DNA of 64,000 bases from Aggregatilinea lenta (lineage in GTDB: Bacteria; Chloroflexota; Anaerolineae; Aggregatilineales; Aggregatilineaceae). Each line of letters opens with the position of its first letter. Position 1 is the stretch's first letter. The stretch spans positions 1,407,506-1,471,505 of the forward strand of contig NZ_BFCB01000002.1 of NCBI RefSeq assembly GCF_003569045.1, read 5' to 3'. The translations under genes and the position numbers were made by a program. The notes under the pieces were generated by a model. The model worked only from the letters and a program-made list of their open reading frames with translations. It did no database searches and had not been told where the DNA came from. Shown here piece after piece: positions 1,677 through 19,425 of this stretch.

Positions 1677-1711
1677 GAGTATTCCTCCTCTACTGCATAC
1701 CCAGACTCCAA

Positions 1712-1834
1712 GAGCGTGTATGGAAAGCGGCTTTATACCCCCTCGCATGACTCACCGCAAGCGCCTTCCGCTGCCTTGCTCCCCTTCTCCCTGAGAGAGA
1801 AGGGGCCGGGGGATGAGGGTTTCCGTACCCACGC
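1712..1834. repeat. MITE-like repeat, copy 1
   Basis: A 123-bp copy of a family that begins GAGCGTGTATGGAAA and ends in an imperfect inverted copy (TTTCCGTACCCACGC here). The flanking trinucleotides are CAA (left) and TAA (right), one mismatch from a TNA duplication. The centre holds a GC-rich palindrome around CCCCTTCTCCC / GGGAGAAGGGG. The other copies are at 3164, 10218 and 18134. Confidence 0.85.
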
Positions 1835-1915
1835 TAAGCATGCGCCGGGCGCGCTGCAACCCCTGTACGCCGTGCGGCGGGTACAATCATAGTCACCCAA
1901 CCACGAGGAGGCACA

Positions 1916-2767
1916 ATGACCGATCCGGTTACGATTCACGATGGGCTGGCGATTTATGCCGTGGGGGACGGCGCGCCGGTGCTGCTGATGCCCTATCCCC
2001 ACAGTTTTACGCGCGTTCCGGCGGCGGAAGGCACGCTGTCGTCGATTTTGCAGACGATGGGCCGCCGGGTGATCAGCTTCGACCCACCCGGCGCGTACCG
2101 TTCCACGCGCCCAGCACGCAATGACCTGCCGGAGATGCTCGCCTGCGCGCAGGAGGCGCTCGACCTCAGCGGCGTGTCCGATCCGGTGGACGTAGTCGGC
2201 CACAGTATGAGTGCGCTGTGCAGCCTCGTGCTCGCGCTGGACCGGCCCGACCGCGTGCGGCGGCTGGCGCTGGTTGGCGGGCTGTCTGGCACGCCCGCGC
2301 TGCGGCGTTACAAAGCGATCCCGTACAGTTGGGGCCTGGGCGATCCGCGCTTCTGGCGCATGGCGACGCTCGGCCTGCGGATGCGGCGTGGCCGCGCGAC
2401 CCTGGCAGACCACAACCGTCTGCAATACCTCATCGCGCTCGCCTCGTACCGCGATCCCAGCCAGATCCCGCCCCTGCCCACCGGCGCGGACGCCGAACAC
2501 AAACCCGCACCGGTCCGGTCGCGCTGGGCGCGCACCAGCCGTCGCCTGGACTTCCGCACGCGCCTGGACGAGGTCCGCGCCCCGACCTGGATCGCCGTGG
2601 GCCGTTACGACCCGCAGACGCCGGTCGGGTGCAGCGTCGAGCTGGCGAAGGGTATCCCCGACGCGGCACTGGTGATCTTCGAGCGCAGCGGCCACGCGCC
2701 CTTCGTCGAGGAGCGCGAGCGCTTCAGTGCGGCGCTGAGCGCGTTCTGGGAACGGCCAGGGGACTGA
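1916..2767 (+). CDS. Alpha/beta hydrolase
   Basis: A 283-residue cytoplasmic hydrolase of the alpha/beta fold. The nucleophile elbow is GHSMS with Ser97, the acid is probably Asp232 in GRYDPQTP, and the His is His260 in SGHAPF, so a full Ser-Asp-His triad is present. The final segment SGHAPFVEE is typical of the esterase/proline-iminopeptidase/haloperoxidase-like branch. The start is supported by an upstream GAGGAGG. It is a single gene between a MITE copy and a small membrane protein gene, so no substrate can be inferred. There is a lid-like region at about residues 121-205. Confidence 0.85.
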   Translation: MTDPVTIHDGLAIYAVGDGAPVLLMPYPHSFTRVPAAEGTLSSILQTMGRRVISFDPPGAYRSTRPARNDLPEMLACAQEALDLSGVSDPVDVVGHSMSALCSLVLALDRPDRVRRLALVGGLSGTPALRRYKAIPYSWGLGDPRFWRMATLGLRMRRGRATLADHNRLQYLIALASYRDPSQIPPLPTGADAEHKPAPVRSRWARTSRRLDFRTRLDEVRAPTWIAVGRYDPQTPVGCSVELAKGIPDAALVIFERSGHAPFVEERERFSAALSAFWERPGD

Positions 2768-2838
2768 GCAGCGCAACTCCCGGCGCGGCTGCGCGTATAT
2801 GTCAGTGAAAGCAGCTATCTATGGGAGGTATAAACACC

Positions 2839-3018
2839 ATGGCACGTCAAAACACCGGCTCGCTGATTGGCCGTGCATTCATGATCGTCCTGGCTATCTT
2901 CATCGCGCTGGTCGCGGTGTCACTCGTGATCGCGCTGGTCAAGGTCCTGGCCGGGCTGCTGTTCGTCGTCGGCGTCATCGTCGGCGCGGCCTATATCTAC
3001 CGCAAACTGCGCGGCTGA
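2839..3018 (+). CDS. Small membrane protein, 59 residues
   Basis: The ATG at 2839 follows GGGAGG with good spacing. After a short basic N-terminus the protein is nearly all hydrophobic (about residues 14-54) and ends in a positively charged YRKLRG tail. It is probably one long or two tightly packed membrane segments. It resembles the next small membrane protein (3332-3625) only in style: both end in a GAA-type hydrophobic stretch followed by a tyrosine-containing charged tail. Function unknown. Confidence 0.6.
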   Translation: MARQNTGSLIGRAFMIVLAIFIALVAVSLVIALVKVLAGLLFVVGVIVGAAYIYRKLRG

Positions 3019-3049
3019 CCGGCGCATCCGGCTCACCGCACAACCCTTC

Positions 3050-3082
3050 AGGGGGCGCACGGTGTGACAGCGTGCGCCCCCT
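3050..3082 (+). terminator. GC-rich stem-loop after the small membrane gene
   Basis: A perfect 12-bp stem (3050-3061 with 3071-3082) with a 9-nt loop, 32 bp after the stop codon. There is no T-tract, so it may act as a weak terminator or an mRNA 3' end stabiliser. Confidence 0.5.
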
Positions 3083-3163
3083 GTCCGTATCCCTCACCTC
3101 GCGGGCCGTTCCGCCGGCGTTCCGCTTGGCATCGTGCCCCGGTTCAGTCCTATAATCTGCTTA

Positions 3164-3285
3164 GAGCGTGTATGGAAAGCGGCTTTACACCCCTTCGCGT
3201 TACCCACCGCAAGCGCCTTTCAGTGTCTTGCTCCCCTTATCCCTGAGGGAGAAGGGGCCGGGGATGAGGGTTTCCGTACACACTC
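3164..3285. repeat. MITE-like repeat, copy 2
   Basis: A 122-bp copy flanked by perfect TTA duplications (3161-3163 and 3286-3288). The ends are GAGCGTGTATGGAAA and TTTCCGTACACACTC. It lies just upstream of the 3332 gene and may affect its transcription. Confidence 0.9.
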
Positions 3286-3331
3286 TTAGTAAAGAGGGTA
3301 CTGACGGTAAAACCTGACACTGGAGCGTGGT

Positions 3332-3625
3332 ATGGCAACGACAACACGACAGCGTAAATCGAATCAACTCCTGACCGACTCGCCCATCGGCCAGATTCTG
3401 ATGATCGGCATCGGGATCGTCATGCTGCTGCGGCTGGCCTCGGTACTGCGGGCTTTGTCGGGCGTGGTCCTGGCGATTCTGGGCGTGTTCAACGCGCTTT
3501 TCGGCGTCGTCCTCAGCATCCTGGCGCTGCTCAAAGAAGCCTTCCCCCTGCCGATGTTCGCCGGGCTGGGGGCTGCGCTGGCCTACCTGTACAGCAAGGA
3601 CCGCAACGAACGCCTGAACGGTTAA
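3332..3625 (+). CDS. Small membrane protein, 97 residues
   Basis: A hydrophilic N-terminus (about 19 residues) is followed by hydrophobic segments at roughly 20-37, 42-65 and 73-87, and a charged tail SKDRNERLNG. There is no conserved motif that I recognise. It sits between MITE copy 2 and the end of the convergent ABC transporter operon, overlapping the last codons of that operon by 4 bp at 3622-3625. The family is unknown; membrane location is inferred from hydrophobicity alone. Confidence 0.6.
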   Translation: MATTTRQRKSNQLLTDSPIGQILMIGIGIVMLLRLASVLRALSGVVLAILGVFNALFGVVLSILALLKEAFPLPMFAGLGAALAYLYSKDRNERLNG

Positions 3626-4467
3626 CCGCTCGCCGAATCGCCGCGCCTGTCGCTGCTGCCTCGCAGCGAGTACAATGGGGTGAAGATGGGCGCATCCGTA
3701 TGCGGATCGCGCCCGATTACACCTTCCACCTGGAACACCTCACGCAGCATCGCGTCCGTCAGCACCGCATCGGGCGTGCCCGCCGCATAAATTTCGCCCT
3801 CATGAATCGCCACCAACCGGTGACTGAAGCGTGCCGCCTGGTTCAGGTCGTGCAGCACCATCGCGATACTCAGGCCGTCCTCGTCGTTGAGCTTGTGCAG
3901 CAGCGCCATCACTTCGAGCTGGTGGCTGATGTCGAGGAACGTCGTCGGCTCGTCCAGCAGCAGGATCTGCGGCTCCTGGGCCAGCGCCAGCGCGATCCAT
4001 GCCCGCTGACGCTCCCCGCCCGACAGCGTATTGAGACGCCTGTCGGCCAGCGTGTCAAGTCCCGCCGACTCCAACGCCCAATACACCACGTCGCGGTCGT
4101 GCAGGCTGGCGGCGCGCCACCACGCCTGCCGCGCGAAGCGCCCGCGCTGTACGAGGTCACGCACGGTCAGGTCGCCGGGCGCGCTCGGAGTCTGCGGCAA
4201 AATCGCCAGCTCCTGCGCGACTTTGCGCGTCGAGAGGCGGTGAATCGCGGCCCCGTTGAGGTAGACCACGCCGCCGCGTGGCCGCAGGATGCGCGCCAGC
4301 GCCCGCAGAATCGTGCTCTTGCCGGACCCGTTCGGCCCCACCAGCGTCACGATTTCGCCGCGCAGTACTTCCAGCTCCAGTCCCTGCACAACCGGATGGT
4401 CGCGCCGGTAGCCCAGTTCCAGCCCTTCCGCGCGCAGGATCGCCCCGCCGCTGTGCCCGTCTACCAT
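3622..4467 (-). CDS. FecE/FepC-type ABC transporter ATP-binding protein
   Basis: A 281-residue ATPase that powers import of a metal chelate (siderophore, haem or cobalamin class). Walker A is GPNGSGKST (44-52), the ABC signature is LSGGE (148-152), Walker B is ILLLDEP (168-174), and the switch His is His206 in VLHDLNQA. The sequence GSGKSTILRALARILRPRGG is characteristic of the FepC/BtuD/FhuC group. The ATG at 4467 overlaps the permease stop by 7 bp, so the two are translationally coupled. The C-terminal extension DPHTDAPIFTPL is typical of this subgroup. Confidence 0.9.
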   Translation of the reverse strand: MVDGHSGGAILRAEGLELGYRRDHPVVQGLELEVLRGEIVTLVGPNGSGKSTILRALARILRPRGGVVYLNGAAIHRLSTRKVAQELAILPQTPSAPGDLTVRDLVQRGRFARQAWWRAASLHDRDVVYWALESAGLDTLADRRLNTLSGGERQRAWIALALAQEPQILLLDEPTTFLDISHQLEVMALLHKLNDEDGLSIAMVLHDLNQAARFSHRLVAIHEGEIYAAGTPDAVLTDAMLREVFQVEGVIGRDPHTDAPIFTPLYSLRGSSDRRGDSASG

Positions 4468-5531
4468 TGCGACCGCCTCTCGCGCACCAGCCACAGGAAC
4501 AGCGGCCCGCCGATCACCGCCGTGATAATGCCCACCGGGAACTCGATCCCGCTCTGGCCCAGCAGCGCCGGAATCGAATAGCGTGCCGCCGTGTCCGCCG
4601 CGACCATCAGCGCCGCGCCCAACAGCGCGCTGGCCGGGATCAGGAAGCGGTAGTCGGAGCCGACCAGACGCCGCGCGAGGTAGGGTACCAGCAGCCCGAC
4701 GAACGCAACCAATCCCGCGACCGCCACCGAGCTGCCCGCCAGCACCGCCGCAACCGCCGCCATGAGGAAGCGCGTCCATTCGACGTGCAGCCCCAGCCCC
4801 TGCGCGATCTCGTCGCCGAGCGCCAGAACGTTGGCCCGCCCGGCCAGCAGCAGCGCCGCCACCAATCCGACCGCGCTGTAGGGCCAGATCAGGTCGAAGT
4901 CCGCCCAGGCAGCGGTATAAAGCCCGCCCACGAGCCACTGGAACACGGCCTGCGCGCCCACCGTCACGGTCATGGCGACCACCGTCGTCGTGAAAGCGTT
5001 CATGGTCGCGGTGACGGCCACACCCGCCAACGCCAGCCGCACCGTCGAGGCGCCCGACCGATCCCACGCCGCGCCGTACACCACCAGCGCGCCAATCAGC
5101 GATCCGGCAAACGCCGCGATGGGCACCACGCCGGGCGCGGCGTCCGTTTGCAGCAGCACAACCGCCGCCGCCAGTCCGCCGCCCGCCGACACGCCCAGCA
5201 CGTACGGATCGCCCAGCGGCGAGCGCACGACGCCTTGCAGCATCACACCCGCCACGGACAGGTTGAGTCCAACCAATGCGCCGACCAGGGCACGCGGCAG
5301 GCGCACCTCGCGCACGATGATCAGCACCGATTTTTTCAGGTCGGCGTCATCGCGCAGCGCCGCGATCACCTGATCGACCGGAATGCTCTGCGAGCCAACC
5401 GCCAGCGCATAGGTCAGCGCCGCCGCCAGCAGCACCGCGCAGCCCAGGATCGCAAGTATGCGGAACACCAGTCGCAGCCGGACTTGATCGGCCAGGAGCT
5501 GTGGAGCCGGGGAAACCGTGCGAACACCCAC
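4461..5531 (-). CDS. FecCD-family ABC transporter permease
   Basis: A 356-residue inner-membrane permease with roughly nine to ten hydrophobic segments. It shows the FecCD hallmarks RLPRALVGALVGLNLSVAG and GAVMLQG-like LQGVVRSPLGDPYVLGVSAG near residues 78-117, and the coupling-helix region AQGLGLHVEWTRF. It forms a homodimer with the ATPase at 3622-4467 and takes substrate from the binding protein at 5647-6615. A palindromic stem-loop lies between the binding protein gene and this gene, which may lower permease expression relative to the binding protein. Confidence 0.9.
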   Translation of the reverse strand: MGVRTVSPAPQLLADQVRLRLVFRILAILGCAVLLAAALTYALAVGSQSIPVDQVIAALRDDADLKKSVLIIVREVRLPRALVGALVGLNLSVAGVMLQGVVRSPLGDPYVLGVSAGGGLAAAVVLLQTDAAPGVVPIAAFAGSLIGALVVYGAAWDRSGASTVRLALAGVAVTATMNAFTTTVVAMTVTVGAQAVFQWLVGGLYTAAWADFDLIWPYSAVGLVAALLLAGRANVLALGDEIAQGLGLHVEWTRFLMAAVAAVLAGSSVAVAGLVAFVGLLVPYLARRLVGSDYRFLIPASALLGAALMVAADTAARYSIPALLGQSGIEFPVGIITAVIGGPLFLWLVRERRSQW

Positions 5532-5587
5532 TATCGTACCGCCTTGTGGAAACGCGAAAGCACGAGTCTACCACACAAAACAAAGCA

Positions 5588-5611
5588 CAGGGGTGTACGC
5601 GTACACCCCTG
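5588..5611. terminator. Perfect 24-bp palindrome between binding protein and permease genes
   Basis: Twelve-bp arms (CAGGGGTGTACG and its complement) with no loop bases. There is little T-tract on the minus strand. It is probably a partial terminator or 3' stabilising hairpin after the binding protein gene, giving differential expression inside the operon. Confidence 0.55.
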
Positions 5612-5646
5612 CCTGTTGACATTCAAGTTGCGGAGCGCGCGGCCCT

Positions 5647-6615
5647 CTACCCGGCGGACTCGGTCGCCACCGGCTCGCTCATCGCCGGTTCGGACATGCC
5701 GTACAGGATGCTGCGCAGCTGCATCAGCGCGTCGATGACGCGCGGTCCCGGCGATTCGAGGAACAGGCGGTTATCCAGCTCGATGACGCTGCCGTTCTGC
5801 GTGGCGGTCAGCGACGACCACACCGGGTCAGCCGCGATTTCTTCGGGGATCGGGGTCGCGCCCGGCGCGCCGCGTGTGATGGTCAGGATCACGTCCGGGT
5901 CGGCATCCAGAACCTGCTCGACGCTCAACTGCGCGAAGCCGGGGAATGGACCTGCGTCCGGCTGGTCGTCACCGATGATCGTGCCGCCCAGCATGGTCAC
6001 CATGCCGCCCAGGTAGGTCGAGGACTTGCCATAATTCGGCGTGGACAGCGTGCCCACGATAATCAGCACGCTCGGCCCATCGGCGGGCGCGGTGTCCTGC
6101 ACCAGCGTTAGCAGCGAGTCATAGGCGTGCGCCAGGTATTCGGCGGCGGTTTCGTGATAGGTCGCCTGCCCGACGAGGCGGATCGTCGCGGGCACGTCAG
6201 ACGGCGCCTGGATCAGAACGACGATGGTGGGCGCAATCGCTTCGAGCTGGTCCAGGATCTGCGCGTTGAGATCGGCGCTGGCGACGATCAGGTCCGGCTC
6301 CAGGGCAGCCAGTGCTTCAAGGTCCGGCTGGTAGCCTGTGCCAAATGTGGGCAGCGACGCCGCCGCCTCAGGAAAGTCGATGCCTTCGGTTGCGCCAACC
6401 GGTGTGATGCCGATCGCGTACAGCACCTCGGTAATCGATGCGCTCATGCCGACGACGCGCTGCGGCGCGCTTTCGATCGTGACCTGACGGCCCATAATGT
6501 CGGTGACGGTGCGCGGGCCGTCGCCCTGCGCGAGTGCTGCCGGGGCGCTGACGCCGAGCACCAGCGCCAGGGCCAGGACGCCAACCGCAAACCGGAGCAA
6601 AACCTGTGACTTCAT
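5647..6615 (-). CDS. Periplasmic/lipid-anchored ABC substrate-binding protein (metal chelate type)
   Basis: 322 residues with a signal peptide at 1-29 (hydrophobic core LLRFAVGVLALALVLGVSAPAALA, cut near ALAQG; no lipobox Cys). The mature protein has the class III binding-protein pattern: TVTDIMGRQVTIESAPQRVV, GMSASITEVLYAIG, then LEALAALEPDLIVAS and DADPDVILTITRG. It delivers an iron-chelate, haem or cobalamin-type ligand to the FecCD permease. A promoter and a divergent Fur-family gene upstream favour metal regulation. The ligand cannot be read from the sequence. Confidence 0.85.
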   Translation of the reverse strand: MKSQVLLRFAVGVLALALVLGVSAPAALAQGDGPRTVTDIMGRQVTIESAPQRVVGMSASITEVLYAIGITPVGATEGIDFPEAAASLPTFGTGYQPDLEALAALEPDLIVASADLNAQILDQLEAIAPTIVVLIQAPSDVPATIRLVGQATYHETAAEYLAHAYDSLLTLVQDTAPADGPSVLIIVGTLSTPNYGKSSTYLGGMVTMLGGTIIGDDQPDAGPFPGFAQLSVEQVLDADPDVILTITRGAPGATPIPEEIAADPVWSSLTATQNGSVIELDNRLFLESPGPRVIDALMQLRSILYGMSEPAMSEPVATESAG

Positions 6616-6666
6616 GTAGTAATCTCCTTGGTACGAAGGGTTCAGACAGCAAGCGTGACTTCTCAG

Positions 6667-6696
6667 ATTGTAAGGGCGCGTTTAGAAGATTGACAA
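6667..6696 (-). promoter_or_regulatory. Sigma-70-type promoter for the ABC importer operon
   Basis: On the minus strand, TTGTCA (6691-6696) and TACAAT (6667-6672) are separated by 18 bp. The AT-rich stretch immediately upstream (6700-6730) lies between this operon and the Fur-family gene and is a likely place for a Fur-type operator, although I could not find a clean palindrome. Confidence 0.55.
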
Positions 6697-6848
6697 CGTG
6701 AAATTCTGATCAAATCTGACTAATTCTTACTTTGGGCCTGGCGGAACGTTGAGAGGCGCCTGAGTCGACGGCCTGCGTGGTGCCCTGCCAAAATCTGGTG
6801 CGGTGTGGCATAATGGGACTATCGAACATCCAAGCGAACGAGGCCCGC

Positions 6849-7331
6849 ATGAGCGTTTCGCCCGACCGCCCGACCACCGACGACCTCGACGCGCGCATCG
6901 AGCGCGCCTTCGCCAGCGCCGGGCATCGCCTGACGGCGCAGCGCCAGATGCTGATCGACCTGCTTCGCGCTCACGGCGGCTTCCTGGACGCCGAGGAGTT
7001 GTTCGACCTCGCGCAGCTGCGCGGGCAAACGCTTAGCCTGGCGACCGTCTACCGGACGCTGGCGCTGTTCAAGCAGCTCGATCTGGTCGAGGGCCGCATC
7101 GTGGGCGAGGGCCACGACCGCGAGCAGTACCGTCTGCGCTCGCTGCGCCAGCACTATTCGCTGACCTGCCGCCGCTGCGGCGCGATCGTGCCCGTCGAGC
7201 CGGACATCGTGGATGACTTCCGCCGTCAGGTGACCGCCGAGCTGGGCGTCACCGTGCTGTCGGCGCACTCGTGCTTCGTCGGCTACTGCGCCGACTGCAC
7301 CGCCGCTCTCGCCGCCGGGGAAGACGCTTAG
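6849..7331 (+). CDS. Fur-family metalloregulator
   Basis: A 160-residue DNA-binding repressor. The N-terminal winged helix contains GHRLTAQRQMLIDLLRAHGG and the recognition-helix region LATVYRTLALFKQLDLV (about 64-80). The C-terminal dimerisation domain has two CXXC pairs, Cys107/Cys110 and Cys147/Cys150, which bind structural zinc in Fur-family proteins. Only one His (His102) precedes the first CXXC, unlike the HHDHLIC string of classical Fur, so the sensed metal (Fe, Zn or Mn) is open. I chose the ATG at 6849 over the upstream one at 6777 because the conserved domain starts soon after it. It is divergent from the ABC importer, which it probably controls. Confidence 0.85.
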   Translation: MSVSPDRPTTDDLDARIERAFASAGHRLTAQRQMLIDLLRAHGGFLDAEELFDLAQLRGQTLSLATVYRTLALFKQLDLVEGRIVGEGHDREQYRLRSLRQHYSLTCRRCGAIVPVEPDIVDDFRRQVTAELGVTVLSAHSCFVGYCADCTAALAAGEDA

Positions 7332-7858
7332 CGGGAATGGGATAAGCCCCCACTCTGGCCCTCTCCAATCAAGTTAGAGAGAGGGAGCAAGCCCAAATCG
7401 ATGGCTTTCGTAGGGGCAGGTTTGTAACCTGCCTTTGCCTTTTCTTTGCCTCCGCATCAAAAACCGGGCGGGCTGTAAACCCATAGCCATTAAGCTAAAT
7501 AGGGCAAACGTAACCTTTTCCCCCTGATGTCAAGACAACGCATAAGCATCGGTGACCGTAAGGGTAGAGCAAGCTCTACCCGCTTTTCTCTTAACGGGCG
7601 ATGCAAGCATCGCCCCTACGCAAAGCACGAGAGTCCATTTCCCCCTCGAAAGGGCTTAGCTTAATGTGGATGAGTTGTAAGCCCGCCCCTACAAAACCCG
7701 TTGTGACATGCTTGTCTCCCCTCTCCAACCCAGATTGGAAAGGGGCCGGGGGTGAGGTCGCGTTTTTCCCTTCGCACAAACACGCTGCCCTGTCCATGAT
7801 GGACGGGGCAGCGTTGAGTTCACCTGAGCGAACCGGAGAACCGGTCGGCGTCACCGGC
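7332..7858. repeat. 527-bp intergenic block of mixed short repeats
   Basis: No gene is seen. The block contains a degenerate CCCTCTCCAA-type unit (7346-7392), a GTAGGGGC hairpin (7410-7435), a palindrome with 9-bp arms (7562-7581), a GGGCGATGC/GCATCGCCCCTAC hairpin (7594-7620), a half unit CCGCCCCTAC (7682-7692), and a second CTCCCCTCTCC...GGGGCCGGGGGTGAGG unit (7714-7757). Related units occur in at least ten other intergenic regions of the window. Confidence 0.75.
7786..7818. terminator. Stem-loop between the convergent Fur and LIV-binding-protein genes
   Basis: Strong stem with arms ACGCTGCCCTGTCC and GGACGGGGCAGCGT around a short loop. It is followed on the minus strand by TGTTTGTG, so it probably terminates the 7859-10054 gene. 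Confidence 0.6.
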
Positions 7859-10054
7859 CTATTGGAACACCTTGTACGAGATCCACACGGTCTGGTCCTG
7901 GCGGTTCTCGACACGCGCCACAGCCTTGTTGCCTTCCGCCGTGATCACGCCGAACACCGTGCCCGGCTGGACCTGATTAGAGCCGATGCCGACGCTGTTG
8001 TTGATGGTCGAGTCATTGACGTCGTTCGGCGAGGCGGCCTCGTAGGTCACGCCTAGCACGCCCATACGCGCGCCGTTCTCCATCGCGATGTTGTAGCCGT
8101 CCCACGTGAAGTCCACCGTGCCGCCGTAGAGGTCAAACTGCGTCCCGGCGGCCAGCTGGATGTTCGTCTGCTCGGCCAGCGTCGCCGCGCTGGACTGGAC
8201 CGCCTGCGTGAACGAGTTATTCGTCTCGTTCGATTCGGCGACTTCGTTACTCTGGTCGGCGGTGACGATCATCTGCGCGGTGCCGGTGCCCACCACCGTG
8301 CTCGACAACTGGACCTGGCCGCTCTGGCCGCTCGCCAGCCCCTCGATGAAGCCGGTGATGTAGTTAGCCTGGTCGAAGGTCAGGCCCACCGCGAAACGTC
8401 CCGCCGCACCGCCGCCCGCATTACGCACGGTCACCGTCGCGGCAAACGGCTGGTTCGGGACTGGCTGCGCAGGGTTGAGCACGACGCTCTCCACCAGCAG
8501 ATCGGGCTGGCTTCCCAGCGCCGGAGGCGCTGTGACGGCAGGCGTCGGCGTGGCGGGCGACTGGAGGATCGGGATCGAGCCGAGGTCGCCGGTCACGTTG
8601 GCGAATTCGGCCTTGATCCAGCCGATGCCGCCCTGATAATTGATCACCAGCCAGCTATAGTCCGCGACCGCCCCCAGAATTTCGAGGATGTCGCCCTGTT
8701 GGACCTCGCCGATCTGGTCGAAGTTAAAGCCGGGGCCGGACCGCACGTTGAGCGCGGTGGTCGTCACGACCGCGTATGCACCCTCACCGATGGCCGGGTT
8801 CGGCGTGGTCACCGGGCTTGCGGGCGTCTCCACGATCGGGGCTTCTTCATCCAGCGCAACGAACTGCCCGTCGATGTACAGAGCGAGTACGTTGACGCCG
8901 CCCCACGGCCCTAGTTCGTACACCATCGCGGTGTGGATCAGGTCGCCGTTCTCGTAGGCGCTGGCGCTCAGCGTGCCCTGCACCAGCGACTGTGCTGCGC
9001 TCGCCGTCAGGCCAGCGAGGATCTCGTCTGGCTCGACGCCCTGGCTCACGATCGCAGCCCGCAGCAGCCACACGCCATCGTACAGCGCCACAGACAGCGG
9101 ACCCGGCACTTCGCCGAACGCGCTGACGTAGTCGCGCAGGAAGATTTGCGACGCGCCGCTCGTATACGAATAGGCCCAGGAGGTCACACCCAGCACGCCA
9201 TCCGCGATCTCGCCGGGCAGATCATCGCCGCGCGCGGCCTCGTCCGCCAACCGATAGGCGAATTGGCCGGTCCAGCCGCCGTCACGCATCTGGCGCAGCA
9301 AGCTCGCCGCGTATTGGGGCGGCCCCCACATCACGATTGCTTCGGGGTTGAGGTCGCCCAGGTCGATCACGGCGTCGTCCAGGCCAGCCCCGCTCGGAAT
9401 CTGGACCTGATCCGCCGGTTCCAGCTCCGCCTGGCCCAGCGCTGCCGCAAAGTTAACCAGCGGCTCGGTCGATTCGACGTCCGCCTGGACCAGCGCGATT
9501 TCGGTCAGGCCCAGTTGATCGACCATGTATGCTGCCAGCGCCTCGCTGTAAATTTCCTCTGGCGCGCGCAGGCGGAACACCTGGCCCTCCAGGTCGCCCG
9601 ACGTCAGCGCGTTTTCGGTGGCTGCCGTCAGGATCGGCAGGCGCGTATCGACCAGCTTCTCAACCGTAAGCTCGTCAAAGCTTGCGTTCGCGTTCGGGCC
9701 AAAGATCGCCACGACGTCTTGCTGTACCAGCTCTTCGATTGCTTCATCGAGCGCCGTCGAAGCCAGCACCTCCGGCGAGGGCATCACCAGCTCCAGCCGG
9801 TACGACGTGCCGTCCGGCGCCGTCACGCCTCCCGCCGAGTTGATCTGACTGATGGTAAGCCGTGCGCCGTTGGCTGCCTCGTCAGTCGCCTCGCCGAGAT
9901 AACCCACCCGCACCACGGCATCATCCTGCGCAGTGGGAGCAGCCAGTGCCAGCGGCGCAAACAGCGCGGCCACCAGCGCCACGACGACCGCCAGACCCAG
10001 CCCATACCACTGCCGGAATAAATATCTTCCCCTCTTTTGTATTTGGCGTTCCAT
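7859..10054 (-). CDS. Exported modular protein: LIV-type binding domain, SH3, CARDB, C-terminal domain
   Basis: 731 residues. A signal peptide or anchor lies at about 17-39. Next is a periplasmic binding domain of the leucine/isoleucine/valine type (about 46-400: VRVGYLGEATDEAANGARLTISQIN, then AIFGPNANASFDELTVEKLV). A bacterial SH3 domain follows (about 427-490: TTALNVRSGPGFNFDQIG), then a Pro/Thr linker, a CARDB-like adhesion domain (about 515-625: PDLLVESVVLNPAQPVPNQPF), and a C-terminal beta-rich domain (DLYGGTVDFTWDGYNIAMENG). No permease or ATPase gene is adjacent. A surface sensor or scavenger role is more likely than a plain transporter subunit. AGGAGG supports the start. Confidence 0.8.
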   Translation of the reverse strand: MERQIQKRGRYLFRQWYGLGLAVVVALVAALFAPLALAAPTAQDDAVVRVGYLGEATDEAANGARLTISQINSAGGVTAPDGTSYRLELVMPSPEVLASTALDEAIEELVQQDVVAIFGPNANASFDELTVEKLVDTRLPILTAATENALTSGDLEGQVFRLRAPEEIYSEALAAYMVDQLGLTEIALVQADVESTEPLVNFAAALGQAELEPADQVQIPSGAGLDDAVIDLGDLNPEAIVMWGPPQYAASLLRQMRDGGWTGQFAYRLADEAARGDDLPGEIADGVLGVTSWAYSYTSGASQIFLRDYVSAFGEVPGPLSVALYDGVWLLRAAIVSQGVEPDEILAGLTASAAQSLVQGTLSASAYENGDLIHTAMVYELGPWGGVNVLALYIDGQFVALDEEAPIVETPASPVTTPNPAIGEGAYAVVTTTALNVRSGPGFNFDQIGEVQQGDILEILGAVADYSWLVINYQGGIGWIKAEFANVTGDLGSIPILQSPATPTPAVTAPPALGSQPDLLVESVVLNPAQPVPNQPFAATVTVRNAGGGAAGRFAVGLTFDQANYITGFIEGLASGQSGQVQLSSTVVGTGTAQMIVTADQSNEVAESNETNNSFTQAVQSSAATLAEQTNIQLAAGTQFDLYGGTVDFTWDGYNIAMENGARMGVLGVTYEAASPNDVNDSTINNSVGIGSNQVQPGTVFGVITAEGNKAVARVENRQDQTVWISYKVFQ

Positions 10055-10539
10055 TCAGTCCTCCTGAAGGCTCTAGGTAGGCTCAACTCAGCGTGGCCCT
10101 AATTGTAGATGAAACCCCCACACGGTGCACGAGACGCGTGTCACACCTCGATTATATAAAACCTTCACCCGGATTGTACACCCGACCTTCGGCTAGCGCC
10201 TGCGTGGCGGTCCCTCAGAGCGTGTATGGAAAGCGGCCTTACACCCCTTCGCGTGACTCACCGCAAGCGCCTTCCGCTGGCTTGCTCCCCTTCTCCCTGG
10301 GGGAGAAGGGGCCGGGGGTTGAGGGTTTCCGTACACACTCTCAGCCGTCCCACTCCGAGCCGCCAAGCGTGTCAAAAAACCGTTACGGATTTCAGGAGTT
10401 TGCGCTTGTGGAATGGACTAATCGGTGCGAGAATGCGTTATACATGGGGGATGGGGGATAAAGCGAGATACCCAACCTGAAAGGGACTTCAGCTCTTGGC
10501 TGCTGCCACGTTCAGTTGGGGGCATGAGGAGACGAGTTC
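10055..10539. other. 485-bp intergenic region with MITE copy 3 and leader sequence
   Basis: Apart from the MITE (10218-10340), the left part (10085-10200) is AT-richer and should hold the promoter of the minus-strand 7859-10054 gene. The right part (10345-10539) is the leader of the BON-like gene. No further ORF is supported. Confidence 0.5.
10218..10340. repeat. MITE-like repeat, copy 3
   Basis: A 123-bp copy with perfect TCA duplications (10215-10217 and 10341-10343). The ends are GAGCGTGTATGGAAA and TTTCCGTACACACTC. The different TSD from the other copies shows an independent insertion. Confidence 0.9.
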
Positions 10540-10770: not shown

Positions 10771-10794
10771 ACCACCGATCACGCCGTTCAATAG

Positions 10795-10833
10795 AACAGA
10801 GGGCGGGCACACAACCGGCCCTCTGTTTTTTCG
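10795..10833 (+). terminator. Intrinsic terminator of the BON-like gene
   Basis: The stem ACAGAGGGC / GCCCTCTGT is followed by TTTTTT at 10828-10832. Confidence 0.85.
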
Positions 10834-10895
10834 CCTCGACACAACGCCGTCCACTTACCGGCGCTCGTGTTCTTGCCTTTGCTTTTCGCACTTGG

Positions 10896-11651: not shown

Positions 11652-12826
11652 TAGAGTGTCTTCCAATCCGGTCGATGCAGAAGGGTACGCGTCCACCACT
11701 TGAAGAAGCGGTATAGGATAGTATACGTAAAACGGCCCCAGACGGTTCGAGGCAGCGCCATCGGGGAAGCTGCCTCTAAATCCGCCGTCACGACGGCATT
11801 CAACTGCGCGATCAGGGCGGGGTCGCTGCTGAAGACGTTCAGCTCTTTTTGCGTCAGCCCTTCCAGCTCGATCATATTGAATGATCCGAAACTCGCCCAT
11901 CGATCATCAGCCACGATCAGCTTGGCGTGCGTCATGCCGCCGCTGCCCTCGTAGCCAAACACCGTCACGTTAGGGTGATCCAGGCGGTGCAGCAGCTTGC
12001 GGACCCAGATCCGGTACAGCAGCTTATTGCTGCGCGCGGGCAGGATGAGCGTCACGCGCACGCCGCGCTCGGCGGCGGCCCGCAGTGCGGTCTCGACGTG
12101 ATCGCCCAGCAGGTACGGCGACTCGATGACCAGCGTGTGCTGCGCGCGCCCGATCATGTCCAGCACTTCCTCGAAGATCGAGTAGCGCCCGGCGCACTGG
12201 TTGAGCACGAAGTCACCGTCGGGCACGCGTGCCGTCAACGGCACCGTCGCGCCGTCCCACGTCGAGCAAAAATCGCGTGCCAGAACCGCCGCCAGCGGCC
12301 CTTCGATACGCACCATGAAGTCGTGCCAGGCGTAGTTGTGGTCGGAGATGTTGATCCCGCCGACGTACGCGATCCGCTCGTCGAGCACCACCATCTTCTT
12401 GTGATTGCGGTACAGCATATACTGCTTGAAGCGGCCCGGCGGCGCGGTCCGCTTGACGCCGACGCCGTCCGCGCGCAGCCGGTCGAACAGGGCCAGCGTG
12501 TGCGATCGCTCGCGCTGCACGTCGCCCCGGCGGTGCACTAAAATTGGGTATACGTCGCTGAGGATCACGTCCGAGTAGCCATCCACCATCAGGCGCACGT
12601 CGAGCCTGGCAGCGGCTTTGGCGGCCAGCAGCGCCGAAAACGCCTCACCGCTGGCGTCGCCCTCGTAGGTCATGAACTGCGCGTACAGGCTGTGCTCACA
12701 GCGATCCAGGTCGGCACGCAGCGACGCCATGAACGCCGCCGCGCCCACCCGCACGTCGAATCTATTCTCGCCCTGCGGGGGGTCGTCCGCCGGGCGGGGG
12801 TTTACTGCTCTATCGGAAGTGGTCAC
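11645..12826 (-). CDS. Phospholipase D superfamily protein, cardiolipin-synthase-like
   Basis: 393 residues with two HKD motifs: HKKMVVLD in YRNHKKMVVLDERIAYVGG (about 142-149) and HAKLIVAD in THAKLIVADDRWASFGSFN. Both are complete (HxKxxxxD), so the enzyme should form the normal two-motif active site for phosphatidyl transfer or hydrolysis. There is no N-terminal membrane anchor, unlike ClsA, so it is closer to ClsB/YbhO-type proteins. The gene is the first of a two-gene unit with the DedA-like gene. Confidence 0.85.
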   Translation of the reverse strand: MTTSDRAVNPRPADDPPQGENRFDVRVGAAAFMASLRADLDRCEHSLYAQFMTYEGDASGEAFSALLAAKAAARLDVRLMVDGYSDVILSDVYPILVHRRGDVQRERSHTLALFDRLRADGVGVKRTAPPGRFKQYMLYRNHKKMVVLDERIAYVGGINISDHNYAWHDFMVRIEGPLAAVLARDFCSTWDGATVPLTARVPDGDFVLNQCAGRYSIFEEVLDMIGRAQHTLVIESPYLLGDHVETALRAAAERGVRVTLILPARSNKLLYRIWVRKLLHRLDHPNVTVFGYEGSGGMTHAKLIVADDRWASFGSFNMIELEGLTQKELNVFSSDPALIAQLNAVVTADLEAASPMALPRTVWGRFTYTILYRFFKWWTRTLLHRPDWKTLYC

Positions 12827-12952
12827 GCGTCAATCCTGTCGTGAAGGTACGGCGGTACGTCGCCGCCTAGGGTCTGTGAAAAAAGAGGAGGAAATTCTTG
12901 AGCGCGTTCACATGCCCTTGCAAATGTCGCCTGTTCGGGGCTTTCGCCCAAG

Positions 12953-13025
12953 CACCTCACCCCCTGGCCCCCTCTCCAATCGGATTGGAGAGGGGGAAGC
13001 GAGCATCAGCGAGCGGGGGTGAGGT
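12953..13025. repeat. Long inverted intergenic repeat (CACCTCACCCCCTGG type)
   Basis: A nested hairpin: CACCTCACCCCC at the left pairs with GGGGGTGAGGTG at the right, and inside CCCCCTCTCCAATC pairs with GATTGGAGAGGGGG. It belongs to the same family as units at 7714, 19381, 31500 and 35455. Confidence 0.8.
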
Positions 13026-13067
13026 GGATTAACACCCCGCCCTTGCCAATTCACAAGTCAACACACT

Positions 13068-13658
13068 CTACCGGGACACATTGGGATTATCCGCCACCCA
13101 CCAGCGCCAGGGCATGCTCAGCCACGGCTCGACGACGCTGCCCAGCCCAATACGCGGCCCGGTACGGACCTGCTCGTCCGGCACGGGTGGCCCCGCTTCG
13201 ATCCACAGGTCGCGCTTGCCGGTGAGATCCAGCCCGTTCTCCTCACCCGCAACGCCCAACGCCTGCGCCAGCCGCGCCGGGCCGCGCGTCCAATCGCGCG
13301 GCGGGCGACCGGGTCGATTGGCCGCCATGATCGACTGGCCCTCCTGCGGATCGATCGCGCGCAGCAGCACCGCCGCCGGGTGATCCTGCGGCTCGCACAC
13401 CACGTTCAGCAGCCAGTGCATGCCGTAGGTGAAATACACGTAAGCGTGCCCCGGCGCGCCGTACATGATCGTGTTGCGCGGCGTGCGGTGCTTGCGTCCG
13501 TGCGACGCCATATCGTCCAGGCCGGTATACGCTTCCGTCTCGACGATCAGGCCGCTGACGCGCTGGCCGTCGATCTCGCGCACGAGCAGCGCGCCGAGCA
13601 GAGCGCGCGCCACAGCCGTGGCCGGGCGATCGTAAAATTCGCGGGGTAGAACCGGCAT
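13068..13658 (-). CDS. 3-methyladenine DNA glycosylase (AAG/MPG family)
   Basis: 196 residues from the ATG at 13658; the ATG at 13667 abuts the ribosome site AAGG too closely. The enzyme removes alkylated purines from DNA in base excision repair. Family motifs: LARALLG near the N-terminus, the catalytic Glu in IVETEAYTG, DMASHGRKHRTPRNTIMYGAPGHAYVYFTYGMHWLLNVVC, and AVLLRAIDP. All are intact. It is convergent with nothing and lies directly downstream of purD on the same strand. Confidence 0.92.
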   Translation of the reverse strand: MPVLPREFYDRPATAVARALLGALLVREIDGQRVSGLIVETEAYTGLDDMASHGRKHRTPRNTIMYGAPGHAYVYFTYGMHWLLNVVCEPQDHPAAVLLRAIDPQEGQSIMAANRPGRPPRDWTRGPARLAQALGVAGEENGLDLTGKRDLWIEAGPPVPDEQVRTGPRIGLGSVVEPWLSMPWRWWVADNPNVSR

Positions 13659-13683
13659 CGTCGTCATCCTTATCAGCCGCGGC

Positions 13684-14961
13684 CTATTCCCACTGCGAGC
13701 GCAGCAGGCCGATGTCGCGCCGGTACTGCATCCCGTCGAACTCCACGCAGTCCACGCCGCGATAGGCGCGGTGTGCGGCGGCGGTCAGGTCCGGCCCGAC
13801 GGCGGTCATGTCGAGCACACGCCCGCCCGTCGTGATCAGCGCCCCGTTGTCGAGGCGCCGCGTCCCAGCGTGGAAGACCAGCACATCGTCCGGCACGTCG
13901 CAGCGCGTGGTGACCGCCAGCCCGGGATCGCTGTGCTCCGGGTAGCCCGCCGTCGCCAGGACGACCGACACCGCCGCACTGCGCGACCAGCGCACGTCGA
14001 GCGCGTCCAGCGTGCCATCGATGCATGCGTCGATCACGTCCAGCAGGTCCGTTTCCAGCAGGGGCAGTACCACCTGCGCGCCGGGATCGCCGAAGCGCGC
14101 GTTCAGTTCCAGCGCCTGGGGACCCTCCGCCGTCAGCACCACGTCCACGTACACCACGCCCGCAAAACAGCAGCCGTCAGTTTGCAGCCCATCCAGCGCG
14201 GGTTCGATGATCTCGCGGCTGATGCGCAGCGCCATCTCGCGCGAGACGGCGGGCGCAGGCGCGTGCGCCCCCATCCCGCCCGTGTTCGGGCCGATGCCGC
14301 GCTCGCGCAGGCGCTTGTACTCACGCAGAGGCGGCATCAGCTTCAGGGCGTGGCCGTCGGTGAAGGCCATCAGCGACAGCTCGTCGCCGTGCAGCCGCTC
14401 TTCCAGAATCACGCGGCGGCCCGCTTCGCCCAGCGCATCCCGTTCCAGTAGGGAGCGCAAAATGCCCTCGGCGTCCGTCTCGCCCTGGGGCAGAAAGACG
14501 CCTTTGCCGCGCGCCAGGCCGTCCGCCTTGATCACGATGCTGTCCACGGGATGTGTTAACAGAAATTCGCGCGCATCGTCGAGGTTGGTCACCACTTCGT
14601 AGCGTGGCGTGGGCACGCCATGGTCGATCATCAGGCGCTTGGCGAAGCTCTTGGAGGTCTCACTGAGCGCGGCCTGCCGCCGGGGGCCGAAAATGCGCAT
14701 GCCCGCCGCCGCGAACTGGTCCACCAGCCCGCGCGCCAGCGGCTCTTCCGGCCCGACGACGGTGAGATCGACCCGCGCGGACTCGGCAAACGCCATCAGG
14801 CCGACGATATCCGTCGCATCGACGTCCACGTTATGCGCGATCTGCGCGGTCCCGGCATTGCCCGGCGCAACACTGATCCGGCCAATACGCGGCGACTGGG
14901 CCAGCTTCCAGGCGAGCGCGTGTTCTCGCCCGCCGCCGCCCACCACGAGCACGTGGAGCAT
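13684..14961 (-). CDS. purD: Phosphoribosylamine-glycine ligase (GAR synthetase)
   Basis: 425 residues. It is the second step of de novo purine synthesis, joining 5-phosphoribosylamine and glycine with ATP. The N-terminal domain has VLVVGGGGREHALAWKL. The ATP-grasp domain has KADGLARGKGV, the GPNTGGMGAHAPAP loop, and ELNARFGDPGAQVVLPLLETDL. All are characteristic and complete. GGGGAG precedes the ATG. purC lies two genes upstream on the same strand, separated by a membrane glycosyltransferase gene. Confidence 0.97.
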   Translation of the reverse strand: MLHVLVVGGGGREHALAWKLAQSPRIGRISVAPGNAGTAQIAHNVDVDATDIVGLMAFAESARVDLTVVGPEEPLARGLVDQFAAAGMRIFGPRRQAALSETSKSFAKRLMIDHGVPTPRYEVVTNLDDAREFLLTHPVDSIVIKADGLARGKGVFLPQGETDAEGILRSLLERDALGEAGRRVILEERLHGDELSLMAFTDGHALKLMPPLREYKRLRERGIGPNTGGMGAHAPAPAVSREMALRISREIIEPALDGLQTDGCCFAGVVYVDVVLTAEGPQALELNARFGDPGAQVVLPLLETDLLDVIDACIDGTLDALDVRWSRSAAVSVVLATAGYPEHSDPGLAVTTRCDVPDDVLVFHAGTRRLDNGALITTGGRVLDMTAVGPDLTAAAHRAYRGVDCVEFDGMQYRRDIGLLRSQWE

Positions 14962-15000
14962 GCCGCTTCTCCCCTCGTTACGGTCCGGTGCGCGCCCCGT

Positions 15001-17094
15001 TTAGGAGCGCCATCGGTATAGAATATAAGCCGGTTCGTCCTGCGGGCCACCTCGCCACACTTCGTCCAGGTACGCTTGCGTGAATGTCTGCCACGCAGCC
15101 CAGTCGGCGGCGGTGTAGTCGTCGTTGCCGTCTTCTTCGTACACGCGCCCGGATTCAAACACGAGCAGCGCGTCCGCGCCGTCCGCCTGCCATGCCGCCG
15201 CGATTGCCGCCGGGTCGCCGTCCTCGACCGTGCGCCGCGCGTGGACCCACGCGTCCAGCGACGAATCGACGCGGCAGGTGATGCGCTCATCGTCGCAGTA
15301 CAGGCCGCGCGGCTCCCACAGGAACCACACCTCGGTGCCCGGCTCCAAATCGTTCACCTCGTCAAACGCGACCGGCGTCCAGCCGAGCACGTGCTCCAGG
15401 TACGCGCTGCGATACCCGCTCGCGCCCGAAAAATAGGCATGCAGCCCGCTCGTCACAAAGTCGCGCCCGGTGTTGATCAGCGCCAGCACGAACACCAGCG
15501 CGATCATGGCGCGCAGCACGAAGCCCAGGTCAAGCGGCTTGACCGGCAAGCGGCCCAGCCCATCCACCGCGATCCCGGCCAGCACCGCGACCCACGGCAG
15601 CATGAAAAACACCAGTCGCGTCTGGATGTTGTAAAACGAGCCGAACGCCGCGCTCACCATCCACGCCGCGACGGACACGCCGACCGCGATCAGCACGCGG
15701 CGCACCAGCGCGCGCGCCGCCACATCCAGGCGGCCCCAGACCACCAGCAGCAGCGGGACCAGGAACGCAAACAGCGGCCCGATATCCGCCTGGTACGTCG
15801 CGCCATTGTCCACGCCGAAGATCGTCGCGGTCAGCGGCAGAACCGGAACCTGCCACGCGCGCCCCGTCGGCACGAGGCCCGTACCGGGCGCAGCATACCA
15901 CTCCACGCGGAAGGCGTCCATCTCCGCCGACGGGAAAAACATCGGGTACACCGGGTTATGGTACCAGATCGCGTTGCGCGCCAGCCAGGGCAGCAGCACG
16001 ATCGCCGCGACCGCCGTATAAATCGCGCCGCGCCGGATCGCGGTGCGCCAGCCGTCGTCGCGGCTGATCCACAGGATCAGCACGCCGGCGCTGATCGCCG
16101 CCCAGATCGCGGTGTACTTGGTGCTCATGGCCCAGCCCGCCAGCGCGCCGAGCAGGATCAACGTGCGCGTGGCAGTCGATCTGCTCGCGCCGCCGGAGCG
16201 CGCGTCCACCACCGCGTCGACCCAGCGTTCCACCACGGCCAGCATCACGATCGCCAGCGCCATCAGCATCAGGTCTACGTACGCCTCGTAAAACTCCTGC
16301 CAGACGGTGTACGCCGCGACGAGCGTGCCCGCCGCCACCCAGCCCGCCGTACGTCCGGTTCGCCGCGCGGTGAAGGCCCCCGTCATCAGCAGCATCAGCG
16401 CCCCGATGGCCCAATGCAGCGGCGCACTGGCCGTCAGGCGTCCGGTGAGCGCCACCTGCCCCGTATACAGCGACTCGACCAACTGCGGAAAGCCGAGGAA
16501 GTGCACGTACGGCACGGCGTAAAAGCGCCCGTGCTCAACGTAGCGCTCCGGGCCGTAGAGGTGATAGGTCAGCGTGTCCCACTGCGTCGGCGGCAGCACG
16601 GACAGAATCAGCGCCATGCCCAGCAGCGCGCACACCGCCAGCGCGATGAAGCGCGGCCAGCCGCCCGGCGGCAGTCCGGCGCGCACGCAGCCCACCAAAT
16701 CGCGCAGCCAGCCGAGCAGATCGCGCGCGGTCAGCGCCAGCCCGGCCACCAGCAGCAGCGCGATCGCCAGCGGATGCAGCGTCACCAGCCCGACCGCGAA
16801 GATCGCCAGCGACAGCACCGCCAGCCCGACGATGCCCTGGGCAGCCACCAGCTCGCCCACACTCCAGCCCGCCAGATCGACCGCGCGCAGGGCGCGCCGC
16901 CCGATCGCGCCGCCCAGCGCGACGAACAGCCCCGCCGTCAGTAAATCGAGCACCACGCCGCCGAGCGCGCCTGCCAGCGGCGCGTCGAAGGGCTTGTGCA
17001 CCCAGTAGTACAGCCCCAGAACGAGCAGTGTCCAAAACAAAGCGCCTGTCGCGACCAGCACAGGTCTCGAATGGGAAGATCGCATCATTTTCAC
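15001..17094 (-). CDS. Multi-pass membrane glycosyltransferase (GT39/ArnT-like)
   Basis: 697 residues with about a dozen hydrophobic segments and a C-terminal soluble part (about 570-697). The loop LPPTQWDTLTYHLYGPERYVEHGR (about 166-190) carries the acidic residue and aromatic context seen in lipid-linked-sugar GT39/PMT-type enzymes. It probably transfers sugars outside the membrane; neither acceptor nor donor can be deduced. The GTG start at 17094 has no clear ribosome site; the ATG at 17088 is an alternative. It sits between purC and purD but has no purine role. Confidence 0.7.
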   Translation of the reverse strand: MKMMRSSHSRPVLVATGALFWTLLVLGLYYWVHKPFDAPLAGALGGVVLDLLTAGLFVALGGAIGRRALRAVDLAGWSVGELVAAQGIVGLAVLSLAIFAVGLVTLHPLAIALLLVAGLALTARDLLGWLRDLVGCVRAGLPPGGWPRFIALAVCALLGMALILSVLPPTQWDTLTYHLYGPERYVEHGRFYAVPYVHFLGFPQLVESLYTGQVALTGRLTASAPLHWAIGALMLLMTGAFTARRTGRTAGWVAAGTLVAAYTVWQEFYEAYVDLMLMALAIVMLAVVERWVDAVVDARSGGASRSTATRTLILLGALAGWAMSTKYTAIWAAISAGVLILWISRDDGWRTAIRRGAIYTAVAAIVLLPWLARNAIWYHNPVYPMFFPSAEMDAFRVEWYAAPGTGLVPTGRAWQVPVLPLTATIFGVDNGATYQADIGPLFAFLVPLLLVVWGRLDVAARALVRRVLIAVGVSVAAWMVSAAFGSFYNIQTRLVFFMLPWVAVLAGIAVDGLGRLPVKPLDLGFVLRAMIALVFVLALINTGRDFVTSGLHAYFSGASGYRSAYLEHVLGWTPVAFDEVNDLEPGTEVWFLWEPRGLYCDDERITCRVDSSLDAWVHARRTVEDGDPAAIAAAWQADGADALLVFESGRVYEEDGNDDYTAADWAAWQTFTQAYLDEVWRGGPQDEPAYILYRWRS

Positions 17095-17133
17095 CCGGTC
17101 AAAGGAAACAGAAACGCAGCCGGACGCGCCGCG

Positions 17134-18105
17134 CTAGCCGAGCACGTTCGCCGCATGCAGTGCCGCCCAGATCCGCCTTTGCGACGGATACGTCGCGGGT
17201 AGGAACGGCGTGCCGGTCAGCATCTCATACACGTCCTGGTAGTGGCGGCTGATGGTGACGATCAGGTCGTCGGGCAGCGGCGGAAGTTTGTCGCCGTCCC
17301 GGTAGCCCTGCGCCTGATACCACAGCCGCACGAATTCCTTGTCGAAGCTTTCCGGCTCCTGGCCCTCTTCGAACAGCTCGTCGTAGGTGTCGGAACGCCA
17401 CAGGCGGCTGCTGTCGGGCGTGTGCAGCTCGTCGATCAGCACCAGATCGCCATTGAGATCCAGCCCAAACTCGTACTTGCTGTCCACCAGGATCAGGTCG
17501 GAGAGGATGCACAACTGCTGGCCGCGCATGAACAGCTTGAGCGCCTTGTCTTGAATGCGCTCCCATAGGCTCTGCTCGGGGCCCAGCGCGACGATCTCCT
17601 CGTCGGTCAGCGGCTGCTCGTGCGTGCGGCCAAATTCCTTGGAGGTCGCCGTGACGATGGGCTGCGGCAGCTCCTGATTTTTGCGCATGCCGTCGGGGAA
17701 CGTCATACCGTATATCTCGCGCTCGCCCGCCTCATAGCGCATCCACAGGCTGGCCGGGGTCACGCCGGTGAGGAAGGCGCGCACCACGACCGCGATGGGC
17801 AGCGGGTGCGCCGTGAGCGCGATGGTGGTGTTGGGATCGACCACGTCGATCAGGTGGTTGGGCATGATGTTCGCCGTCTGCTCGAACCACCACAGCGTGA
17901 GCTGGTTTAGCACCTGGCCCTTGTAGGGCACCAGCCCCACCTGCTGGTTGAAGATGGTGAAGCGGTCGGTGCTGATCACCACCCGGCGACCATCCTGAAG
18001 CACAAAGTTGTCGCGCACCTGACCGCGCTCACCGGCCAGGCCCGGCAGATCGATGCTTTCCAGTGCCTGCGGGATGACCGGTCGGATTTGACCAGGTGTG
18101 AGCAT
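17134..18105 (-). CDS. purC: SAICAR synthetase
   Basis: 323 residues. It joins aspartate to CAIR in purine synthesis. Motifs: GERGQVRDNF (the family GKVRDxY loop), STDRFTIFNQ (family SDRxSxFD), VVVRAFLTG, then DLILVDSKYEFGLDLNGDLVLIDELHTPDSSRLW, and SFDKEFVRLW. It is longer than the 240-residue E. coli form and matches the longer 300-residue type. GAGGG precedes the ATG. MITE copy 4 lies 28 bp upstream of the start and so may overlap its promoter. Confidence 0.95.
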   Translation of the reverse strand: MLTPGQIRPVIPQALESIDLPGLAGERGQVRDNFVLQDGRRVVISTDRFTIFNQQVGLVPYKGQVLNQLTLWWFEQTANIMPNHLIDVVDPNTTIALTAHPLPIAVVVRAFLTGVTPASLWMRYEAGEREIYGMTFPDGMRKNQELPQPIVTATSKEFGRTHEQPLTDEEIVALGPEQSLWERIQDKALKLFMRGQQLCILSDLILVDSKYEFGLDLNGDLVLIDELHTPDSSRLWRSDTYDELFEEGQEPESFDKEFVRLWYQAQGYRDGDKLPPLPDDLIVTISRHYQDVYEMLTGTPFLPATYPSQRRIWAALHAANVLG

Positions 18106-18133
18106 GGACGTTTCCCTCTCATCATGAGCCTAA

Positions 18134-18256
18134 GATCGTGTATGGAAAGCGGCTTTACATCCCTTCGCGGTACTCACCGCCAGCGCCTTCCGCTGTCTTG
18201 CTCCCCTTCTCCCCCAGGGTGAAGGGGCCGGGGGATGAGGGTTTCCGTACACACGC
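18134..18256. repeat. MITE-like repeat, copy 4
   Basis: A 123-bp copy flanked by perfect TAA duplications (18131-18133 and 18257-18259). The left end is GATCGTGTATGGAAA (one change from the consensus). The right end is TTTCCGTACACACGC. Confidence 0.9.
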
Positions 18257-18282
18257 TAAGTGGTTTTTTTGCGAGTGTGAAG

Positions 18283-19333: not shown

Positions 19334-19425
19334 ATGGGCGGGTTAGATGCCCGCCCCTACAAACCTATGGATCGCTCGCTTGTCTCCCCTCTCCAACTTG
19401 ATTGGAGAGGGGCCGGGGGTGAGGT
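19334..19425. repeat. Two adjacent intergenic repeat units
   Basis: 19334-19360 is a GGGCGGG/CCCGCCCCTAC hairpin unit. 19381-19425 is a CTCCCCTCTCCAA...TTGGAGAGGGGCCGGGGGTGAGG unit. The rest of the 342-bp gap (19177-19518) holds the SDR promoter and no gene. Confidence 0.8.

Follow-up and report, generated by a model that had tools for sequence, protein, structure and literature searches.

The question raised by this locus is what the short repeats in a 64-kb stretch of the Aggregatilinea lenta genome are (the whole stretch that was analysed is called the window here) and by which means they have spread. The earlier note had described four copies of 122–123 bp, with the flanking duplications TTA, TCA and TAA and one CAA/TAA pair, and had interpreted them as non-autonomous elements of the IS5 type with a TNA duplication. 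All four copies were found at the coordinates below, where the same flanks were read, and they could be aligned end to end over their full length, with columns that, counting the flanks, were on average 86% identical. The repeat is called MITE A in the following.

1712..1834, + strand: MITE A copy 1, 123 bp, flanks CAA/TAA
3164..3285, + strand: MITE A copy 2, 122 bp, duplication TTA
10218..10340, + strand: MITE A copy 3, 123 bp, duplication TCA, fold z -3.8 as RNA
18134..18256, + strand: MITE A copy 4, 123 bp, duplication TAA

A genome-wide count gave 46 full-length copies of MITE A in the 6.2-Mb genome, together with three shorter relatives of 79–80 bp, in a 5-contig assembly with a reported contamination of 4.66%; 40 of 111 candidates were scored in the search with the 123-bp sequence, and the searches with GAGCGTGTNTGGAAA and with the pattern of the inner core covered the whole genome. 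A perfect 3-bp duplication flanks 28 of the 46 copies and is absent from 18, and in 27 of the 28 it has the TNA form (TAA 10, TTA 8, TCA 5, TGA 4). When the pairing of the flanks was shuffled in 20,000 trials, the mean number of matches was 7.8 and the maximum was 18, compared with the 28 observed. Copies that resembled the consensus more closely had a duplication more often (Mann-Whitney p 0.015), and 16 of the 19 copies that were at least 90% like the consensus had one, which indicates that the loss of the duplication goes with divergence. The consensus, 122–123 bp without a transposase gene, has a left end that is almost always GAGCGTGTATGGAAA and a right end that, read inwards, is mostly GAGTGTGTACGGAAA; these consensus ends agree at 13 of 15 positions, and the consistent difference between left and right ruled out one homogeneous pair of ends. 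A chance origin of the repeats is excluded because GAGCGTGTNTGGAAA, at no more than one mismatch, matched the genome 51 times compared with three times for the reversed pattern, and the core pattern was found at 81 sites compared with one for its reversed version.

The copies are clustered, with 20 pairs no more than 10 kb apart as opposed to 4.0 at random, and two copies at 34.9 kb of contig C2 stand head to tail with one TAA in common. A 1.7-Mb region of contig C3 (1.21–2.90 Mb), in which about 12 copies would be expected, has no full-length MITE A, and other types of the inner motif described below (TM) are present there. Searching positions 1–20000 of the window against Rfam gave no match. 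Judged from the letters, the copy number, the ends and the duplications are those of a transposed element, and they support the earlier interpretation of a non-autonomous IS5-type element with a TNA duplication. As in the MITEs of the IS5 family that we liken to it, presumably those of the IS1031/IS427-like groups, MITE A is short and geneless, has imperfect inverted ends starting with GAGCGTGT, is flanked by 3-bp TNA duplications and occurs in tens of copies. Unlike them, it carries a TM/BoxC motif that is common to MITEs with other ends, and its cognate IS was not found among the PF13340 and PF01609 matches of the genome.

A candidate for the source of the transposase lies in the window itself, and the earlier note had claimed for it ends similar to those of the repeats and a TAA duplication. 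The ends proved to be perfect and the duplication was confirmed:

63..902, + strand: IS5-family IS, ends GAGCGTGTTTGTTAAAT, TAA duplications at 60-62 and 903-905
107-532: IS ORF, PF13340, NF033580 transpos_IS5_3
532-891: IS ORF, PF01609

The same genome contains two relatives of this IS with similar ends, one a twin (C2:1648969) and the other a cousin (C3:2204209). All three have GAGCGTGT in common with MITE A and are like it in 12 of the first 15 bases, the three differences falling within positions 9-13. The IS of the window and its twin are near-identical, which suggests recent activity, and their transposase is split at an A6G stretch, a frameshift-type arrangement. A broken IS5-type transposase in G010, a genome of the same family, has an end (GAGCGTGTACGGAAAG, locus L176) with a TTA flank and 14 of 15 bases like MITE A, a match that concerns a single end of a broken copy, and an IS with GCAAA-type ends was found in genome G005 (L184). 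No IS with the A-type (GGAAA) ends was present among the PF13340 and PF01609 matches of the own genome, and the best 30 loci that were read from 154 genomes of the order included no intact GGAAA-type IS, only the broken L176 and L230. The IS5-type reading of the earlier note therefore stands, whereas the partnership with the IS at 63–902 that it implied is weaker, with 12 of 15 end bases alike compared with 14 of 15 for L176. To judge by the ends, this IS is a relative of the MITE and probably not its parent. The cognate IS was probably lost from the lineage or went undetected in the genome, and a resident transposase may act on MITE A in trans.

Inside the MITE there is a hairpin that the earlier note had overlooked. 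In its layout, CCCCTTCTCCC-loop-GGGAGAAGGGG-CC-GGGGGATGAGGG, a pyrimidine tract is followed by the purine tract complementary to it and then by a mirror purine tract in which one base is T. Class II motifs have a pyrimidine tract, a complementary purine tract and a mirrored one with either A or T opposite A, and the core is, as far as its letters tell, the intrastrand-triplex motif of this class that is also known as BoxC, PIT element or TM. A detector of this order (Y-R-R) found three of the four MITE A cores, and it reported eight motifs in the window compared with none in shuffled windows. The TMs of the window are the following:

1781..1819, + strand: TM core of copy 1, Y-R hairpin plus GGGGGATGAGGG
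3235..3270, + strand: TM core of copy 2, found by the Y-R-R detector
10289..10325, + strand: TM core of copy 3, found by the Y-R-R detector
18203..18241, + strand: TM core of copy 4, stem imperfect, GGGTGAAGGGG; under the detector threshold
12955..12995, - strand: TM outside MITE A, of the type flanking the genome's DUF559 gene (GGAGAGGGGGCCAGGGGGTGAGG)
7718..7757, + strand: TM outside MITE A, with another palindrome before it (CCCGCCCCTAC type)
19386..19424, + strand: TM outside MITE A, with the same second palindrome as at 7718..7757 before it
35458..35497, + strand: TM outside MITE A, with a similar second palindrome before it
63402..63444, + strand: TM of type E, GGGGAAGGGGCCAGGGGATGGGGG

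Several TMs are immediately preceded by a member of this second palindrome family, GTAGGGGCGGGTT...AACCCGCCCCTAC (window 7600-7757, 19300-19424 and 35370-35497; loci L211-L219), and palindrome and TM look as if they were parts of mosaic elements.

Among the copies of MITE A, the stems of the core and the third strand are conserved at 92–94% and the ends at 94 and 90%, compared with 84% for the spacer (p 2e-5). The changes in the stem comprised four double changes and 31 broken pairs; a claim of covariation was dropped because the double changes were too few, and with so few compensatory changes selection on the structure as such is not proven. Triplex folding in vitro was shown for the E. coli motif (PMC4666352), and Holder et al. 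(2015, PMC4666352) counted TM 23 times in E. coli MG1655 and reported it from over 260 genomes, with inverted pairs that belong to a type A (TTA) and a type B (CCG). The core of MITE A has the same Y-R-R order and the CCG junction of type B, the E. coli motif seen in our analysis has the TTA of type A, and the relatives carry paired inverted copies. In E. coli, TM was reported to be unassociated with transposons, phages and plasmids, and no gene for mobility was seen near it (PMC4666352), whereas here it lies inside MITEs that have TNA duplications and also next to DUF559 genes. As far as a limited search of the open-access literature goes, MITE A would be the first TM described as riding in a transposed element.

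The same core is found between different ends. When the 123-bp query was matched to 18 related genomes, the matches listed, often tens of copies, were confined essentially to its inner 40–50 bases and left out the ends. The earlier note had held an occurrence of the sequence without its ends, at fixed syntenic positions of distant species, against a MITE; the first half of this, the occurrence without the ends, was found for the inner hairpin, which is a known motif in its own right. In genus g6 (L125, L132, L133) the core forms a two-hairpin unit, CCCCTCACCCC...GGGGATGAGGG, between GAGCGTGTATGGAAA-type ends, and in genomes G002-G004 and G023 it lies between quite different ends. The 81 core sites of the own genome fall into MITE A and the types B to E. 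The MITEs of type B have the ends GAGCGTGTCTGCAAA / TTTGCGGACACACTC and, in several copies, TNA duplications, those of type C have the ends GAGGGTGTTGAAAAA / TTATTAAACACC, and the outer ends of types D and E resemble GAGCCTGTTATGAACTT and GTGCATAACACGC; IS5-type elements with GAGCGTGTTATGCACTTT ends are also present in the order. MITEs A and B have their layout and core in common, and in B both ends are changed together (GCAAA / TTTGC), which would be expected if each type follows its own transposase. Since the core is present in MITEs with several IS5-like ends and beside DUF559 genes across phyla, its sequence contexts mark it as an independent module.

A single DUF559 gene is present in the own genome, and the best matches of its protein make Chloroflexota the likely phylum of the genome. 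Standalone DUF559 genes (PF04480) in this genome and its relatives lie mostly between TM palindromes. An alignment of DUF559 proteins was scanned over 85,000 species genomes and the 80 best-scoring loci were taken, which came from Chloroflexota, Cyanobacteriota, Bacteroidota, Pseudomonadota and others; the groups were assigned from record titles and the counts ignore relatedness. With a detector that was set when the motif was already known and that takes no account of the particular letters apart from G-richness, a Y-R-R motif was found no more than 150 bp from the gene at 62 of the 80 loci, and it was present on both sides of the gene at 40. Its density within these 150 bp was 4.93/kb; beyond 1 kb it fell to 0.06/kb, and transposase loci had 0.025/kb. 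Similarly, the word GGGTGAGG/CCTCACCC reached 2.37/kb within 150 bp of the gene compared with 0.05-0.10/kb beyond 1 kb, and the density of its reversed and scrambled versions was flat. A TM within 300 bp was found at 30 of the 32 loci of Chloroflexota, 16 of 20 in Cyanobacteriota, 8 of 17 in Bacteroidota/Chlorobiota, 3 of 4 in the proteobacteria (wide sense) and SAR324, and 6 of 7 in the others. Among 41 relatives, the co-occurrence of the core and DUF559 was weak (11 shared, odds ratio 4.7, p 0.03, relatedness uncorrected), and the matches to DUF559 in plasmid records were few (38 records) and partial, none of them covering 80% of the query, so that no conclusion is drawn from them. As a correlation, the link between TM and DUF559 is strong, and it may reflect an old association by hitch-hiking.

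Profile comparison of the DUF559 alignment gave matches to 3hrl (E 1e-30), an endonuclease-like entry, and to the homing endonuclease entry 3r3p (E 2e-4), a 'mobile intron protein' that we take to be I-Bth0305I, of the EDxHD type. This likeness lies in the profile, and cutting by DUF559 is putative; unlike 3r3p, the DUF559 loci have no visible intron or intein context and are flanked by TM palindromes. DUF559 may cut or spread TM. DUF559 domains are also found inside very long reading frames, methylase-like and oxidoreductase-like (L135, L137, L139-L141, L147, L148, L154-L158), where some of them adjoin peptides (PSPTRGEG is an example) that resemble a TM in translation; these domains are possible in-frame insertions.

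An independent check is provided by E. coli K-12, in which ycjD is a DUF559 gene and a perfect TM lies 182 bp downstream of it; the chance expectation of a TM so close to ycjD is about 0.004 (23 TMs in 4.64 Mb). The ycjD region is present in about 3,330 of 5,426 E. coli genomes. Its gain or loss could not be read as a clean empty site, as the strains without ycjD (two read, sapF-fabI) carry efflux genes and a TetR gene beside fabI. Upstream of ycjD (L340, about 2755-2805) there is a palindrome, CACCTCATTCTGACA...TGTCAGAATGAGGTG, with ends that resemble TM ends, and the 3' end of the gene contains a decayed CCCTCTCCC hairpin. In Hymenobacter, a block of 588 or 619 bp with DUF559, which extends from CCTCACCC to GGGTGAGG, precedes metF in two genomes and is absent from two others, and this comparison shows a gain or a loss of the block, in either direction. 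Another palindrome pair, GTAGCGCGAAGC...GCTTCGCGCTAC, occupies this place in a Hymenobacter without the block (L345), so the site before metF may be a landing place for repeats.

Taking the observed ends, duplications, copy number, core modularity and DUF559 linkage together, we consider it highly probable that the 123-bp repeats are an IS5-type MITE, moved in trans by an IS5-family transposase, that carries an independent class II TM module. A transposase of the PF13340/DDE type, probably from a GGAAA-type IS, would act in trans on GAGCGTGTATGGAAA / TTTCCGTACACACTC, and insertion at TNA targets would duplicate three bases; this identity of the transposase that moved MITE A is a presumed one. 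The core may have come to lie between the ends when a TM element was inserted into a MITE or when a TM was captured between two IS ends, and it may have been retained because it helps the element or because it is replenished. An alternative origin, in which MITE A is an internal-deletion derivative of an IS5 element, the resident IS (63–902 and its twin) is both source and mover and the hairpin is incidental, has in its favour the GAGCGTGT and the TNA duplications common to the two and the presence of the resident IS in two near-identical copies plus a cousin. We regard it as unlikely: the end bases 9, 12 and 13 weaken the resident IS as the parent, the two have no visible sequence in common beyond the ends, and the interior of MITE A is a motif that also occurs in other MITEs and beside DUF559 genes.

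It is quite improbable that the hairpin arose independently in each MITE type through selection (e.g., for a block of replication or transcription), without common descent. G-rich hairpins could indeed serve any small element, and the few compensatory changes leave little to argue from the structure, but the cores match in their letters, including the second loop and the third strand (GGGGCCGGGGGATGAGGG), at 81 sites compared with one for the reversed pattern, and very similar letters recur beside DUF559 genes in other phyla. The core itself would be the mover if the DUF559 nuclease spread TM palindromes alone and the IS5-like ends were a frequent target or neighbour, as might be suspected from the TMs at 62 of 80 DUF559 loci across phyla, the match to a homing endonuclease entry and the DUF559 gene of the own genome. 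However, the duplications of MITE A lie exactly outside the IS5-like ends and not outside the core, and ends and core keep a fixed spacing in the 46 copies; we hold such a movement to be very improbable.

Beside the reading of MITE A as an IS5-type MITE with a TM module, a broader proposal seems to us somewhat probable, namely that a DUF559 gene between inverted TM-bearing ends (CCTCACCC...GGGTGAGG) is one widespread module, that its geneless derivatives are the dispersed TMs of bacteria, and that IS5-type MITEs pick up TMs and spread them further. By analogy, this arrangement resembles the REP/RAYT 'REPtron' (PMC2817692, PMC8266576) in having a nuclease-like gene between inverted palindromes and many geneless palindrome pairs in the genome. 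It differs in that the gene is DUF559 (Vsr-like) and not a tyrosine HUH transposase (TnpA-REP), and in that the TM palindrome has a mirror-repeat third strand in place of the GTAG/CGTC tag; no GTAG or CGTC at a fixed place was seen when the core sequences were read by eye.

BoxC/TM has been known since the 1990s from hundreds of genomes and has been tied to genome instability, and the route by which it spreads was open. One route would be its carriage inside IS5-type MITEs, with the target duplications as the mark of insertion. The other would be its linkage to DUF559, a nuclease family of unknown function that is found in many phyla and includes ycjD of E. coli K-12. If the proposed module is real, it would resemble the REP/RAYT system but use another enzyme and a palindrome of the triplex type.
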